Source: Caldisericaceae bacterium
GTDB lineage: Bacteria > Caldisericota > Caldisericia > Caldisericales > Caldisericaceae
Length of the DNA stretch: 37,103 nucleotides
Direction: 5' to 3'
NCBI GenBank assembly: GCA_027023025.1
Contig: JALVXB010000027.1
Location: 1 to 37,103, forward strand
Shown: positions 3,009 through 8,434 of the stretch, piece by piece
How positions within the stretch are numbered: position 1 is the stretch's first letter
How the letters are laid out: each line of letters starts with the position of its first letter
The notes under the pieces: generated by a model
The model's database searches: none
What the model saw: the letters and a program-made list of their open reading frames with translations, nothing else
What the model was told of the DNA's origin: nothing
Program-made: the position numbers and the translations under genes

Positions 3009-3557
3009 TTACGGAACTGATGGCTCAGATGTTGAATCAGTAAGTTGCGTTGTACTATCAGTTCTCCAGAGATAGTGGTCTGTTCCGGCAGTCTTATAGT
3101 GACAGGAAAGGACCCATGCAGTGCCATCAGCAGAACCATACTTATAATCTTCAGTCGGAATGAATGGATCAACCATAGACTGAATGGTTTTTGCCTTTAT
3201 ATACTCAATTCCTCCAGTCTCTCCAGTTGCAGTAGTATTAGAACTTGTATTAGTTGTAGCATTTATGCCAGTAAGCTCTTTCGCTAATGTCGAGGTTATA
3301 GTTGTACCATCCGTATTCTTACCAAATGGTGACAAAGTCGTTTCTACAGGATATGTTCCCCAATCAGTTCTATACGCTTCGAGTGCTGTTGCTAATGTCT
3401 CAAAGTCAGATGCAACTCTCGATTTCTTTGCCCTTTCTGTCATTTTAAGGTAGTTCGGTATTGCAATTGCTGCCAAAATAATGATAATTGCAATTACTAT
3501 CATAAGTTCGATTAATGTAAAGCCTTTTCTGTTTCTTGCATTACTTATTGTCCACAT
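3009..3557 (-). CDS. Type IV pilin / GspG-like pseudopilin 1 (probable major pilin)
   Basis: The 182-residue precursor has a 12-residue leader ending in RNRKG, cleaved before FTLIELMIVIAIIIILAAIA. That is the classic class III prepilin signal with Phe+1 and Glu+5 of the mature protein. The N-terminal helix is followed by a GspG-like segment (ALEAYRTDWGTYPVE) and a variable C-terminal domain with DPFIPTEDYKYGSADGTAW. It is about 40% similar by eye to the next upstream pilin (3859-4398), sharing ELTG, TTATGE(T/S)GGI and YLxxxDS blocks, so the two are tandem paralogues. Unlike that gene it has a separate consensus promoter and a long leader, which suggests it is the abundant subunit. The start is fixed by GAAGGAGG at 3567-3574. 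The pilus or type II-like machinery encoded upstream would assemble it. Confidence 0.9.
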   Translation of the reverse strand: MWTISNARNRKGFTLIELMIVIAIIIILAAIAIPNYLKMTERAKKSRVASDFETLATALEAYRTDWGTYPVETTLSPFGKNTDGTTITSTLAKELTGINATTNTSSNTTATGETGGIEYIKAKTIQSMVDPFIPTEDYKYGSADGTAWVLSCHYKTAGTDHYLWRTDSTTQLTDSTSEPSVP

Positions 3558-3558
3558 A

Positions 3559-3641
3559 TTACATCGCCTCCTTCGTTAAATTTTTGTAGACTTTTGTTCT
3601 CATTAACATTTCACTTTTCGCAAATTTTTTACTCCAAGCAT
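3559..3641 (-). other. Chained mini-ORFs in the pilin-1 leader
   Basis: Upstream of pilin 1 on the minus strand, AAGGAGGTGAT (3650-3640), a full complement of the usual 16S anti-Shine-Dalgarno end, is followed by an ATG at 3641 that opens MLGVKNLRKVKC, with TAA at 3605-3603. That stop overlaps an ATG at 3603 as TAATG. The second frame (MRTKVYKNLTKEAM; also open from an ATG at 3609) ends with TAA at 3561-3559, one base before the pilin ATG. The second frame contains the pilin ribosome binding site. The spacing of the first Shine-Dalgarno to its ATG is only 2 nt, so translation of the first mini-ORF is doubtful. Confidence 0.35.
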
Positions 3642-3691
3642 CACCTCCTTAAAAATATATCAACCCGTATTTTACATTATATATAAAAATT

Positions 3692-3769
3692 GCAATGCCG
3701 GTTACGCCACTCGGCTCCATATATCCCCCTGGCGTCCATATTGAGGATATACTTCCTCGCCTTCATTGC
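3692..3769 (-). promoter_or_regulatory. Structured 5' leader element of pilin 1 (candidate riboswitch or attenuator)
   Basis: The transcript from the promoter at 3804-3831 has a leader of about 240 nt. Within it, GCAATG (3769-3764) pairs perfectly with CATTGC (3697-3692) to enclose 66 nt. Inside are GGCG (3761-3758) with CGCC (3734-3731), capped by GAGGA/TCCTC (3758-3754 with 3747-3743; shares base 3758), and GCCG (3715-3712) with CGGC (3700-3697; shares base 3697 with the outer stem). The outer stem is followed by AATTTTTATAT, which resembles a termination or pausing site. The block is much more GC-rich than its flanks. I could not match it to a known riboswitch; the hallmark GGGCAAA and GGACGCAAAG strings of c-di-GMP-I are not both present. 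Confidence 0.5.
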
Positions 3770-3803
3770 TATTCTATCAAAAGCCCCTCCTGCATTTTTG
3801 TTT

Positions 3804-3831
3804 ATTATATGACATTGTACAAATTTGTCAA
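3804..3831 (-). promoter_or_regulatory. Strong sigma70-type promoter of pilin 1
   Basis: On the minus strand a perfect TTGACA (3831-3826) and a perfect TATAAT (3809-3804) are 16 nt apart. They lie directly after the stop of pilin 2 (3859). The predicted start near 3797 gives pilin 1 its own long-leader transcript in addition to any read-through from the pil operon. Confidence 0.85.
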
Positions 3832-3858: not shown

Positions 3859-4398
3859 CTATTGATCCACATACCAGGAAGGCTTTGTATTAACATCTTT
3901 GTAGTTAAAACTATCGCTACCTAACAAATAAACCGTGTTACCACTTTTTTTGTATTCACAGGCCAATGTAAAAGAACTGCCATCGCTTGAAAAGTATTCG
4001 TAATCTTTATTGGGTTCAAATGGATCGTACATTTCTCTAATAATCCACTCGCGGGTAAAATAATCTATTCCTCCAGATTCCCCTGTAGCAGTAGTATGAG
4101 ATGGAGTATTAAGTATAGCTCCATCACCTGTAAGTTCTCTTGTTATAGTACTAGTTGGCGTATCGTAATCAGTATGCAAACCAAAAGTTTCTCCTTGTGA
4201 ACCAGTAACAGGATAGGTACCCCAATCTGTTTTATAAGCCTCTAAACTATCCCTAATAGTCCTAAAGTCACTAAATACTCTAGACCTCTTCGCTCTTTGT
4301 AAGAACTTTGCATACGATGGAATTGCAATAGATACAAGAATTATAATAATTGCTACCACAATCATTAATTCCATTAATGTAAAACCATTTCTTTTCAT
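3859..4398 (-). CDS. Type IV pilin / GspG-like pseudopilin 2
   Basis: This 179-residue precursor has a very short leader (MKRNG) cleaved before FTLMELMIVVAIIIILVSIA, with Glu+5 conserved. The remainder parallels pilin 1: a SLEAYKTDWGTYPV segment, RELTGDGAI, TTATGESGGIDYF, DPFEPNKDYEYFSSDGSS and a C-terminal YLLGSDS block. It is co-oriented with and 15 nt from pilC, with AAGGGG as ribosome binding site, so it is most likely expressed from the pil operon. It lacks a separate promoter and may be a minor pilin or an alternative major subunit. The DPFxPxxDYxY region resembles the calcium-site loop of GspG-type pseudopilins, though the ligands cannot be assigned from sequence alone. Confidence 0.9.
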   Translation of the reverse strand: MKRNGFTLMELMIVVAIIIILVSIAIPSYAKFLQRAKRSRVFSDFRTIRDSLEAYKTDWGTYPVTGSQGETFGLHTDYDTPTSTITRELTGDGAILNTPSHTTATGESGGIDYFTREWIIREMYDPFEPNKDYEYFSSDGSSFTLACEYKKSGNTVYLLGSDSFNYKDVNTKPSWYVDQ

Positions 4399-4413: not shown

Positions 4414-5652
4414 TTAGTGAACATAATTTCCCATCTGGAATATAGGAAGATATAAAGAAATTAAAACTCCACCAATTATTACACCAACAAACACCATCAT
4501 TATGGGATTTATTAACGCAGAAATATTATTAATCATATAATCGACTTCCTCATTGTAAAATTCTGCAACTTTTACAAGCATCGCATCCAGACTACCACTT
4601 TCTTCACCTATACCAGTCATTTCTACAACCATAGGGGTAAACATCCCACTTTTTTCAAGAGATGCAGCAAGTGACTCACCTCGCTTTATCCTATTAATTA
4701 TTCCCTCCACTGCCTCGGAAATTATTACATTATCTATAACACCTTTCACAGTTTCAAGCGCTTCTGTCAAGGGTATACCAGCACCAAAAAGAGTCGCAAG
4801 TGTATCACTAAAACGCGCCATTGCTGCTTTTACATTAAGTTCTCCAAAAACAGGCATTTTTAACTTCCAGGTATCCACGCGCTTCCTGCCAGAGGGAGTT
4901 TTTGCCCATTTTGTATACAAAATATATGCTATAATTATAAAAATTAAAAGAATCCAGCCGTATTTAACAAGAAAGTCAGCCATGGCAAATGTAAGTTTCG
5001 TAGGAGCAGGAAGAGGTGCTCCCAATTGGTTAAGAAAATCTTCAAATCTCGGTATAACAAATATGAACAAACCTATCACAATAAGAATAGAAAATACCAA
5101 AACAGCAATAGGATACATCATTGCTCCTTTTAATTTATGCTCAGTCTCGTAGTCTTTTTGCAAGAAGGACGCCATCTTAATCAAAGAATCCCCAAGATTA
5201 CCACTCGCTTCACCTGCTTTTACCATACTAATGTAAAGCGGAGAAAACACATTTGGATATTTTGATAAAGCACTGGAAAGAGAGTTTCCCTTTTTTACTT
5301 CCTCGGCTAAACTCAAAATTATTTTTGTAAGTTTTGGATTCGTGGTCTGCTTTGAAAGAACAGAAAGTGCACGCGATATAGACAGTCCAGCGTTCATCAT
5401 CGTGCCGAACTGGTCTGTAAATATTGAAAGGTCCCTTACAGAAATCTTAGAAAGTTTAGAAAGAAATCCTTCACTCTGGGATTGAACGCCTTTAGACGAG
5501 CCTCCACTAAATCCTCGAGTTTCTTTTATATAAACAATTCTATGACCTTTGCTCCTTAAAAAATCTGCAACTGCAGAAGAAGACTCCATATTAACCTTTC
5601 CAGTTTGTACCTTACCATCAGGTGTAATAACTTTATATACAAAAGTCGCCAT
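4414..5652 (-). CDS. pilC: Type IV pilus inner-membrane platform protein PilC/GspF
   Basis: The 412-residue protein has the two repeated T2SSF domains of PilC/GspF. Domain 1 (about 70-195) includes LSIFTDQFGTMMNAGLSISRAL and the KAGEASGNLGDSL motif. Domain 2 (about 275-400) includes RFSDTLATLFGAGIPLTEAL and GIGEESGSLDAML. Three membrane helices lie near 180-200, 230-250 and 385-405. The N-terminal 70 residues match the usual GspF N-domain (FVYKVITPDGKVQTGKV). The protein anchors the PilB and PilT motors and the growing pilus at the inner membrane. It starts 3 nt after the pilT stop, with a ribosome binding site (GGCGGTGAT) embedded in the pilT end. Length is normal for the family. Confidence 0.95.
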   Translation of the reverse strand: MATFVYKVITPDGKVQTGKVNMESSSAVADFLRSKGHRIVYIKETRGFSGGSSKGVQSQSEGFLSKLSKISVRDLSIFTDQFGTMMNAGLSISRALSVLSKQTTNPKLTKIILSLAEEVKKGNSLSSALSKYPNVFSPLYISMVKAGEASGNLGDSLIKMASFLQKDYETEHKLKGAMMYPIAVLVFSILIVIGLFIFVIPRFEDFLNQLGAPLPAPTKLTFAMADFLVKYGWILLIFIIIAYILYTKWAKTPSGRKRVDTWKLKMPVFGELNVKAAMARFSDTLATLFGAGIPLTEALETVKGVIDNVIISEAVEGIINRIKRGESLAASLEKSGMFTPMVVEMTGIGEESGSLDAMLVKVAEFYNEEVDYMINNISALINPIMMVFVGVIIGGVLISLYLPIFQMGNYVH

Positions 5653-5655
5653 AGA

Positions 5656-6714
5656 TCACCGCCCCATTAAGTGCATAAAACTGTCCTTATTAAATGCATA
5701 CTGAAGACCCTGCTCATAGGTAATCAAACCATTGTTTACTAAATTTTTTAAAGAGGCTTCCATTGTTTGCATCCCGAGATCCGCCCTCGTTTGTATAACA
5801 GATGGTATCTGGAAGCTTTTTCCTTCTCTTATAAGATTTCGAACTGCCGGGTTTGCAATTAGAACCTCGGTCGCCAGTACGAGTCCTCTATTATCTGCGC
5901 GCGGCAAAAGTTGCTGTGAAAAAATAGCAAGTAAGACAGAACTTAGTTGAGTTTTTACTTGTTCCTGCTGATGAGGAGGAAATACATCAACAATACGATC
6001 AATAGACTGAGCAGCAGAGTTTGTATGAAGAGTAGCAAATACAAGATGGCCTGTTTCAGCCGCAGTAAGTGCAGTCGCTATTGTTTCGTAGTCTCTCATT
6101 TCACCTACAAGGATAACATCAGGGTCTTCCCTTAGTGCAGAACGCAATGCATTCGGAAAAGAAAGCGTATCTCCACCTAATTCCCTTTGGGCAATTACAG
6201 AACGCTTATGACTAAATAAATATTCAATCGGATCTTCAATAGTGATAATATGAACAGATTTATTTGCATTAATTTCGTCAATCATTGAAGCAAGTGTAGT
6301 AGACTTTCCGTGCCCGGTAGGACCCGTAACGAGCACAAAACCTCTTTCTTCATTTATAATACGATGGGCAACTGCTGGTACTCCAAGTGAATCGAGAGCA
6401 GGTATATCAAACGGAATTCTTCTAAAAGCAGCAGCTATAGAGCCTCTCTGATAAAACGCATTCACACGAAAACGAGCAACACCAGGAAGCCCATAGGAGA
6501 AGTCATATTCGAGGTTTTTCTTAAAGATTTCTCTTTGCTTATCTGTCATTATAGAAAAAATCATTTCTGCCGTATCTTCAGGAGTTAAGTTTTCTTCTTC
6601 CAAAAAAACTAATTCTTTGTGAATCCTTAACACTGGGGGTAAACCCACTGTTAAGTGCACATCCGACGCACCTTGTTCTGTTGCAAACTTTAACAAGTCT
6701 TCCAATAAAATCAT
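5656..6714 (-). CDS. pilT: Type IV pilus retraction ATPase PilT
   Basis: The 352-residue hexameric secretion ATPase has Walker A GPTGHGKS (131-138), an Asp box around TIEDPIEY, Walker B ILVGEMRD (201-208), a His box (TGHLVFATLHTNSA) and the PilT-type motif AVRNLIREGK (290-299) needed for retraction. The N-terminus (LLKFATEQGASDVHLTVGLPP) is the usual PilT PAS-like start. It powers pilus disassembly for twitching and surface behaviour. The gene lies between pilB and pilC, 13 nt from pilB, with an AGGTGGTGA ribosome binding site. Its presence argues for true dynamic type IV pili rather than only a type II secretion pseudopilus. Confidence 0.95.
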   Translation of the reverse strand: MILLEDLLKFATEQGASDVHLTVGLPPVLRIHKELVFLEEENLTPEDTAEMIFSIMTDKQREIFKKNLEYDFSYGLPGVARFRVNAFYQRGSIAAAFRRIPFDIPALDSLGVPAVAHRIINEERGFVLVTGPTGHGKSTTLASMIDEINANKSVHIITIEDPIEYLFSHKRSVIAQRELGGDTLSFPNALRSALREDPDVILVGEMRDYETIATALTAAETGHLVFATLHTNSAAQSIDRIVDVFPPHQQEQVKTQLSSVLLAIFSQQLLPRADNRGLVLATEVLIANPAVRNLIREGKSFQIPSVIQTRADLGMQTMEASLKNLVNNGLITYEQGLQYAFNKDSFMHLMGR

Positions 6715-6727
6715 TTATTCACCACCT

Positions 6728-8434
6728 CTATTCTATCGTAGAAACAACCCTTAATACTTCTTCTATTGTCGTAATACCCTCTGCGGCCTTCGCTAAAGCA
6801 TCGTCAAGTAGAGTTTTCATGCCTTCTTTTTTGGCCTGTTCCGCAATTTCCCTTGAGCTTGCATTTTTCATAATGAGTCTCTGTATTGCCGGAGTAATCG
6901 GTAAAATCTCGTTAATTGCAACTCTTCCTTTGTACCCAGCATGGTTGCACTTATCACACCCCTCGCCTTTATAAAAGGTGATGTCATTCACATCAACAGA
7001 AACAGAAAAACCAAGATTCTCAAGTATATCTTTTGGTGGATTGTACTCCTTCTTGCAGTAAGGACAAATTTTCCGAATCAATCTTTGAGCAGTCGCACCT
7101 ATAAGCGAAGAAGCAACGAGGAATGGCTCAACACCCATATCTATAAGTCGCGTGGGAATAGATGCAGAATCGTTCGTGTGAATTGTAGAAAAAACCAAAT
7201 GCCCTGTAAGCGCTGCTTCTATTGCAATTTTTGCTGTTTCTGCATCGCGAATTTCTCCGATAAGAATAATGTCTGGGTCTTGCCTCAAAATAGACCTTAA
7301 AGCAGTACTAAACAAAAGGCCTGCTTTCTCATTAACCTGGACTTGATTTATGCCTTTCAGTTGGTATTCTACAGGATCTTCAACGGTAATAATATTTCTA
7401 CTCGGAGTATTTAATCTTTGTAGTGCAGAATAAAGAGTGGTAGTTTTACCAGAACCAGTGGGACCAGATATCAAAATCATACCGTAAGGCTGAGCAATAA
7501 TATCTTCAAACTTTTTTAAATTCTCTGCTGAGAAACCCAACTTTTCAAGTGGCATAAGCGCCTTTGTCTTATCAAGAATTCTCAAAACAACCTTCTCACC
7601 ATATACAGTAGGTAAAGAAGAAACCCTGAAGTCAATTTTACGACCCTCAAATTTTAGAGATATTCTTCCATCCTGAGGTATTCGTTTTTCTGCGATATCC
7701 ATGTTGGACATTATTTTTAATCTCGATATGATACCCGGTTGAATAGACTTTGGAAAACTCTGTTTTTCGTAAAGAATGCCGTCAATTCTATAACGGACGC
7801 GTAAGGACTTCTCTAAAGGTTCTACATGTATATCAGATGCACCTTCAATTATCGCCTGAGTAATTACATTATTTACGAGCCTAATTACAGGTGCTTCCTC
7901 TCCAAGTTGTTTTAATTTTGTAATGTCGAGTTCTTCTTGTTCTTTAACAACTTCTGGAACCTCACCCACTTCTTCTTCCGCTTGTTTTAATGCCGTTTCC
8001 ATTTCGTAATACTTTTCTATCGCCTGTTGGATTGAGGCACGCGTTGCAACATAGAACACGATGTTATTTGACAAGGTGAGCCTTAAGTAGTCCATTGCTT
8101 CTATGTTTGTAGGATCAGAGATCGCAACATGGTAAGTATTACCCTCTTTTTTTAGCAGAAAAATTCCATAATACCTAGCTCTTTCTGGATCTATGAGATG
8201 AAGTATCTCTTTATCAACAGGGTAGGTAAGCAAATTGACATACTGTAACCCCCATTGCTCAGCAAGAATTTGTGCAACCTGCTCATCATTTAAAACACCA
8301 ATATCTACAAATATTTTTAATAAAGGTTCCTTTGTAATTTTCTGAATACCCAGTGCTTTTTCAAGATCCTTTTCCGTAATAAATCCTTTTTTAAGCGCAA
8401 TCTTTCCCACGGTACCGCCTTTAATGTTGATCAT
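6728..8434 (-). CDS. pilB: Type IV pilus assembly ATPase PilB/GspE with MshEN-like N-domain
   Basis: The 568-residue assembly motor has an N-terminal MshEN/T2SSE_N-like region (about 8-145, with GKIALKKGFITEKDLEKAL). The GspE core carries Walker A GPTGSGKT (324-331), the Asp box VEDPVEY (351-357), Walker B IILIGEIRD (389-397), a His box (GHLVFSTIHTND), and a zinc site from C457, C460, C493 and C496. MshEN domains in some relatives bind c-di-GMP; whether this one does cannot be read from sequence. The start codon overlaps the TPR gene stop as ATGA, showing translational coupling. Together with PilT and PilC it forms the motor of the pilus. Confidence 0.95.
   Translation of the reverse strand: MINIKGGTVGKIALKKGFITEKDLEKALGIQKITKEPLLKIFVDIGVLNDEQVAQILAEQWGLQYVNLLTYPVDKEILHLIDPERARYYGIFLLKKEGNTYHVAISDPTNIEAMDYLRLTLSNNIVFYVATRASIQQAIEKYYEMETALKQAEEEVGEVPEVVKEQEELDITKLKQLGEEAPVIRLVNNVITQAIIEGASDIHVEPLEKSLRVRYRIDGILYEKQSFPKSIQPGIISRLKIMSNMDIAEKRIPQDGRISLKFEGRKIDFRVSSLPTVYGEKVVLRILDKTKALMPLEKLGFSAENLKKFEDIIAQPYGMILISGPTGSGKTTTLYSALQRLNTPSRNIITVEDPVEYQLKGINQVQVNEKAGLLFSTALRSILRQDPDIILIGEIRDAETAKIAIEAALTGHLVFSTIHTNDSASIPTRLIDMGVEPFLVASSLIGATAQRLIRKICPYCKKEYNPPKDILENLGFSVSVDVNDITFYKGEGCDKCNHAGYKGRVAINEILPITPAIQRLIMKNASSREIAEQAKKEGMKTLLDDALAKAAEGITTIEEVLRVVSTIE

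Follow-up and report, generated by a model that had tools for sequence, protein, structure and literature searches.

Genomic context of the pilin leader

The window, i.e. the whole 37,103-nt stretch of DNA analyzed from a Caldisericaceae bacterium, carries on its reverse strand a pil gene group and two type IV pilin genes whose products are 55% identical (Table 1). The upstream pilin gene is the last of the group; the second, putatively regulated pilin gene follows behind a leader of about 240 nt that ends at the ATG at 3557 (-) and is served by a promoter of its own. In the sister species G001 (same genus) both promoter hexamers and their 16-nt spacing are kept and the spacer sequence is changed. 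A first-pass annotation had proposed a consensus promoter at 3831-3804, a 240-nt leader and, directly behind a perfect 6-bp stem, an AU-rich sequence; we found each of these as described, the last being AATTTTTATATATA at 3691-3678 and the stem corresponding to P1 of the aptamer characterized below. On the other side of the putatively regulated pilin gene, between it and the convergent O-antigen-ligase-like gene (991-2916), lies an inverted repeat, AATAACCCAGCA...TGCTGGGTTATT, at 2982-2953. It is probably a shared terminator, and the terminator scan made no call there.

Table 1. Features of the pilin leader and its surroundings (window coordinates unless a genome and contig are named)
Feature	Position	Strand	Basis or remark
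c-di-GMP-II riboswitch aptamer	3688..3773	(-)	RF01786 full length; covariation in relatives
P1, 5' strand GCAATG	3764..3769	(-)	pairs with 3692-3697; covaries in relatives
P1, 3' strand CATTGC	3692..3697	(-)	pairs with 3764-3769
P2, 5' strand GGC	3759..3761	(-)	pairs with GCC 3713-3715
P2, 3' strand GCC	3713..3715	(-)	pairs with GGC 3759-3761
P3, 5' strand GTATATCC	3745..3752	(-)	pairs with 3719-3726; double changes at 8/8 pairs
P3, 3' strand GGATATAT	3719..3726	(-)	pairs with 3745-3752
Pseudoknot, 5' strand ACGCC	3731..3735	(-)	pairs with GGCGT 3704-3708
Pseudoknot, 3' strand GGCGT	3704..3708	(-)	pairs with ACGCC 3731-3735
AACCGG ligand-contact segment	3698..3703	(-)	near-invariant among 30 relatives
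Sigma-70-type promoter TTGACA-16-TATAAT	3804..3831	(-)	12/12 consensus match
AU-rich tract AATTTTTATATATA directly after P1	3678..3691	(-)	seen in sequence
Second, upstream Shine-Dalgarno-like block GGAGGTGA	3641..3648	(-)	shared by f1- and f2-family pilin leaders; no conserved start codon
CGAAAAG motif	3614..3620	(-)	forms shared leader module with GGAGGTGA
Pilin's own Shine-Dalgarno AAGGAGG	3567..3573	(-)	about 0.8 unpaired in both modelled states
Type IV pilin (putatively regulated gene)	3009..3557	(-)	PF07963 N_methyl, 36.3 bits
Second type IV pilin, upstream, last of pil gene group	3859..4398	(-)	PF07963, 27 bits
pilC-, pilT-, pilB-like genes	4414..8434	(-)	PF00482, PF00437 twice, PF05157 61.9 bits
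PilB-like ATPase with MshEN domain	6728-8434	(-)	PF05157, 61.9 bits
Leader module loci	window 3648-3614; G007:C1:1133643-1133703; G007:C1:1403631; G007:C1:1472722; G015:C39; G017:C7; G011:C62	(-) for window	
Further module loci	G003:C61; G005:C84; G001:C2; G001:C3; G001:C40; G000:C21; G004:C2; G006:C5		

The leader carries a class II c-di-GMP aptamer

Comparison of the window with Rfam matched the block at 3688-3773 (-) to the c-di-GMP-II family (RF01786) with 55.3 bits, which exceeds the gathering score of 53.5 by 1.8 bits (E = 9.8e-10 for the whole window). The alignment runs over model positions 1-84 of 84, and canonical c-di-GMP-II scores best among the models of its clan for this block. 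The block can be assigned with near certainty to the class II cyclic-di-GMP riboswitch aptamers. Within this known family it is an ordinary member, and the source genome contains no second copy. Class I (c-di-GMP-I, GEMM-I) had zero matches above gathering score in the window, and a class I identity was therefore rejected.

All helices of the family are present. The element shares with RF01786 P1, P2 with a kink-turn-like GA/GA, P3, the AACCGG segment and a pseudoknot that joins the loop of P3 to the strand preceding AACCGG; it differs in that its host belongs to the phylum Caldisericota and in that its pseudoknot pairs are compensatorily changed (ACGCC/GGCGU). Mapped through the Rfam alignment, AACCGG covers contacts A69, A70, C71, C72 and G73 of structure 3Q3Z. 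The numbering of 3Q3Z follows what we take to be the C. acetobutylicum sequence, which agrees with 13/13 listed residues. From the published list of ligand contacts (PMC7288161), A13, U37, G39, A61, A69, A70, C71, C72 and G73 are all kept, and A14, U60, C68 and A74 differ in the window at positions that are variable in the family consensus. GAGGA / GGA after P2 resembles the kink turn reported in the c-di-GMP riboswitch 3Q3Z (PMC4316175). The folding energy of the 243-nt leader (z = -0.99) is uninformative on structure, one reason being that the pseudoknot lies outside the folding model.

Covariation was analyzed in a MAFFT alignment of 30 Caldisericia aptamers. Over P2, P3 and the pseudoknot, 95.6% of the cells were paired vs 71.1% in shuffles, double-changed cells numbered 132 vs 37.5 in shuffles, and the covariation score was 0.747 vs 0.247; double changes occurred at 13/15 pairs, and sliding the partners lowered pairing to 32-46%. 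The pseudoknot on its own reached 99.3% paired cells with double changes at 4/5 pairs. P1 likewise covaries after hand correction of a one-base register shift, and the true pairs, P1 included, fill the top seven ranks among 3346 column pairs; given that the register was shifted by rule, the P1 counts are biased towards structure.

These results bear on what the first-pass annotation had made of the block. It had described GC-rich nested stems at 3769-3692, closed by the 6-bp stem, as the architecture of a riboswitch or attenuator upstream of a pilin; the stems coincide with the Rfam match at 3773-3688, which exceeds the gathering score, and the closing stem is 3769-3764 with 3697-3692. Its guess at a relation to c-di-GMP control of pilin genes was borne out by the class II assignment, and it had correctly noted that class I hallmarks are absent, overlooking class II. 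It had also called for a check of covariation across homologous leaders and of the block's presence upstream of the same pilin in relatives: both were found, and the idea stands. What did not hold was its suggestion that the block may be a divergent member or a new element, as the match lies above the curated cut-off. A new riboswitch or attenuator class was rejected on the same ground and, with all helices and the pseudoknot included in the match, is extremely improbable.

Occurrence among Caldisericia

The closest named relatives are Caldisericales and Caldisericaceae metagenome-assembled genomes. Matches to c-di-GMP-II were found in 18/41 genomes in one search and in 19/49 genomes of the class in another. 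The aptamer lies upstream of pilin homologues in G001, in three genomes of the same family (G005, G004 and G012) and in two of family f3 (G019 and G023); pilins of family f2 are preceded by weaker matches, mostly of about 24-32 bits. Other Caldisericia aptamers precede an HD-GYP-type gene, large repeat-type surface proteins and metalloprotease-like genes, and often two aptamers stand in tandem. In the open literature we found no paper pairing Caldisericum with a riboswitch.

Several observations were made at these other loci. Tandem c-di-GMP-II aptamers precede metalloprotease-like exported proteins at G004:C8:68031-68231, G006:C65, G010:C53, G012:C119, G023:C4 and G035:C238, where TTTTTT or a similar T-rich run often follows P1 directly on its 3' side and a linker is able to pair with the P1 3' strand. 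AACCGG is altered at G004:C8:71829, G026:C42:21103 and G023:C1:26997 (GACCGG in two, ACCCGG in one), and the ligand specificity of these aptamers has possibly changed. In genus g6 a c-di-GMP-II aptamer has behind it very small, almost identical genes for MKWGKLVAFVLSISVLLITLSARFRWH, repeated in tandem with a 128-bp period (L025 1501-1975; L037, reverse strand, 860-1200; L039; L040). In G012 this array is in turn followed by a further aptamer and an HD-GYP-like gene. Stretches of N fall within the small-gene array and a large repeat protein (G006:C62 around 1-1050, and G023:C1).

Ligand and its supply

We infer that the ligand is c-di-GMP. The source genome encodes three GGDEF domains, and in each of them the GGDEF or GGEEF motif is intact. 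MshEN domains of other PilB-type ATPases bind c-di-GMP, and as the PilB-like ATPase of the window carries such a domain, c-di-GMP may control these pili at two levels, the ATPase possibly being the second control point. That a genuine aptamer here responds to another ligand, e.g. a related cyclic dinucleotide, is very improbable: specificity can shift, as shown by the c-di-GMP-II variants named in Rfam (PMC12452182), but at this locus the canonical model outscores the rest of the clan, the AACCGG contact segment is canonical and the GGDEF motifs of the genome are intact.

Proposed mode of control

We read the locus as a type IV pilin gene that has its own promoter and, in its leader, a c-di-GMP-II aptamer probably acting as an ON switch, and assign this explanation as a whole a probability of about 0.85. 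The GGDEF enzymes of the cell would make c-di-GMP, which would bind the pseudoknotted aptamer and stabilise P1. In the ligand-free state the 3' strand of P1 and the pseudoknot would pair downstream with the Shine-Dalgarno-like block at 3648-3641; in the bound state this strand would be held in P1, the leader would be open and pilin would be made.

As for the direction of the switch, it is likely that pilin is made when c-di-GMP is high. The analogues are C. difficile pilA1 and three loci in Caldisericia whose P1 3' strand is itself complementary to the Shine-Dalgarno (G012:C119c, p = 0.005; G010:C73, p = 0.005; G004:C8c, p = 0.025). At these three loci the distance from the aptamer to the start codon is 16-21 nt, and fixing of P1 by a ligand would make the ribosome site accessible. 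At four similar loci the P1 strands are rich in pyrimidines and do no better than shuffles, and at G023:C1 the strand does not pair. Cdi2_4 of Clostridioides difficile, like the element described here, is a class II aptamer upstream of a type IV pilin gene (pilA1), and it is an ON switch (PMC6366702, PMC3649979). It terminates transcription without ligand, whereas the window leader has no detected terminator and contains an extra Shine-Dalgarno-like block.

In the window leader 130 nt separate the aptamer from the start codon, and the P1/pseudoknot 3' strand finds its best partner in the upstream block GGAGGTGA (3648-3641). This pairing had p = 0.10 in the window, which is not significant for the window alone, p = 0.07 in G001 and p = 0.01 in G004. 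In two-state folding the modelled unpaired fraction of the block rose from 0.42 to 0.49 with the aptamer fold, with hardly any change at 60 C. The pilin's own Shine-Dalgarno was ~0.8 unpaired with and without the aptamer fold, and a model in which this site is sequestered directly was rejected on that ground. Given the slight modelled opening of the block and the open Shine-Dalgarno in both states, an expression platform in which the 3' strand switches between P1 and the upstream block is put forward only tentatively. A downstream anti-pseudoknot strand is absent from the window leader and present in f3 and at the tandem loci.

Alternatively, the aptamer could determine whether transcription pauses or terminates at the AU-rich tract 3691-3678, where either formation of P1 (OFF) or an alternative fold (ON) would stop it. 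A U-run directly 3' of P1 in the window, TTTTTT after P1 in many relatives (G004, G006, G010, G012, G035) and termination of ligand-free pilA1 in C. difficile (PMC6366702) would fit such a transcriptional switch. However, of the six pairs of P1 two are G-C, with one more G-C pair at its end, and unlike a terminator hairpin it encloses the whole aptamer. In addition, the terminator scan found no intrinsic terminator on the leader strand, and no antiterminator was found, so that the termination or pause site placed at AATTTTTATAT by the first-pass annotation is unsupported. We consider transcriptional control unlikely.

A second leader module shared beyond the riboswitch

The upstream block at 3648-3641, which is an extended match to the 16S anti-SD, forms together with the CGAAAAG motif the arrangement GGAGGTGA-N20-CGAAAAG in the window. 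A search of 54 genomes of the phylum with the pattern GGAGGYGA-N14..24-CGAAAAG-N18..48-AAGGAGG returned 15 matches (Table 1), and three controls, namely the reversed pattern and two patterns with rearranged CGAAAAG letters, returned 0. In all 15 cases the gene that follows appears to encode an exported or membrane protein. These proteins include pilins, a lipoprotein, S-layer-like proteins (in four g7 genomes), transport proteins (CstA-like, NCS2-like and a PTS-type permease) and others with signal peptides, as named by reading the sequences, with a family search behind the window pilin only. Leaders of f2 pilins likewise carry GGAGGYGA...CGCGAAAAG. None of the 13 module loci searched had an Rfam match, and most module loci are without a riboswitch, indicating a module in its own right rather than just an expression platform of the aptamer.

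A leader peptide at 3648-3600 was rejected: its frame is open in single species, and a frame indel between the sister species G000 and G001 together with in-frame stops in f2 leaves coding unsupported, no reading frame being conserved. We suggest, at somewhat less than even odds, that Caldisericaceae mRNAs for exported and membrane proteins, whether or not they have a riboswitch, share a second, uncatalogued regulatory module that may serve as a ribosome-loading or mRNA-stabilising site and has come under control of the aptamer in the pilin leader. STAB-SD of Bacillus cry genes is an extended Shine-Dalgarno-like leader sequence that stabilises the mRNA and is not used as a start site. The window block is likewise an extended Shine-Dalgarno-like leader sequence with no conserved start codon, and differs in having CGAAAAG 14-24 nt downstream; a STAB-SD-like role of GGAGGTGA is a guess. 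At four loci (L086, L096, L091 and L097) a further repeated leader motif, roughly GGAGGTGATGGTTGTGCAAGAGNGAATAGTTCCTCAAGGTTGAGATA, lies about 60 nt upstream of the module and has no Rfam match.

Significance

The element family is already known; new here are the lineage, the recurring association with pilins within it and, in the leader, the uncatalogued second block. Control of type IV pili by c-di-GMP-II, known from C. difficile, is thereby extended to a deep-branching, mostly uncultured phylum. How common the aptamer is in Caldisericota and which genes it accompanies suggest RNA-based c-di-GMP control of the cell surface, and the shared leader module offers a starting point for studying translation or mRNA stability in this group.
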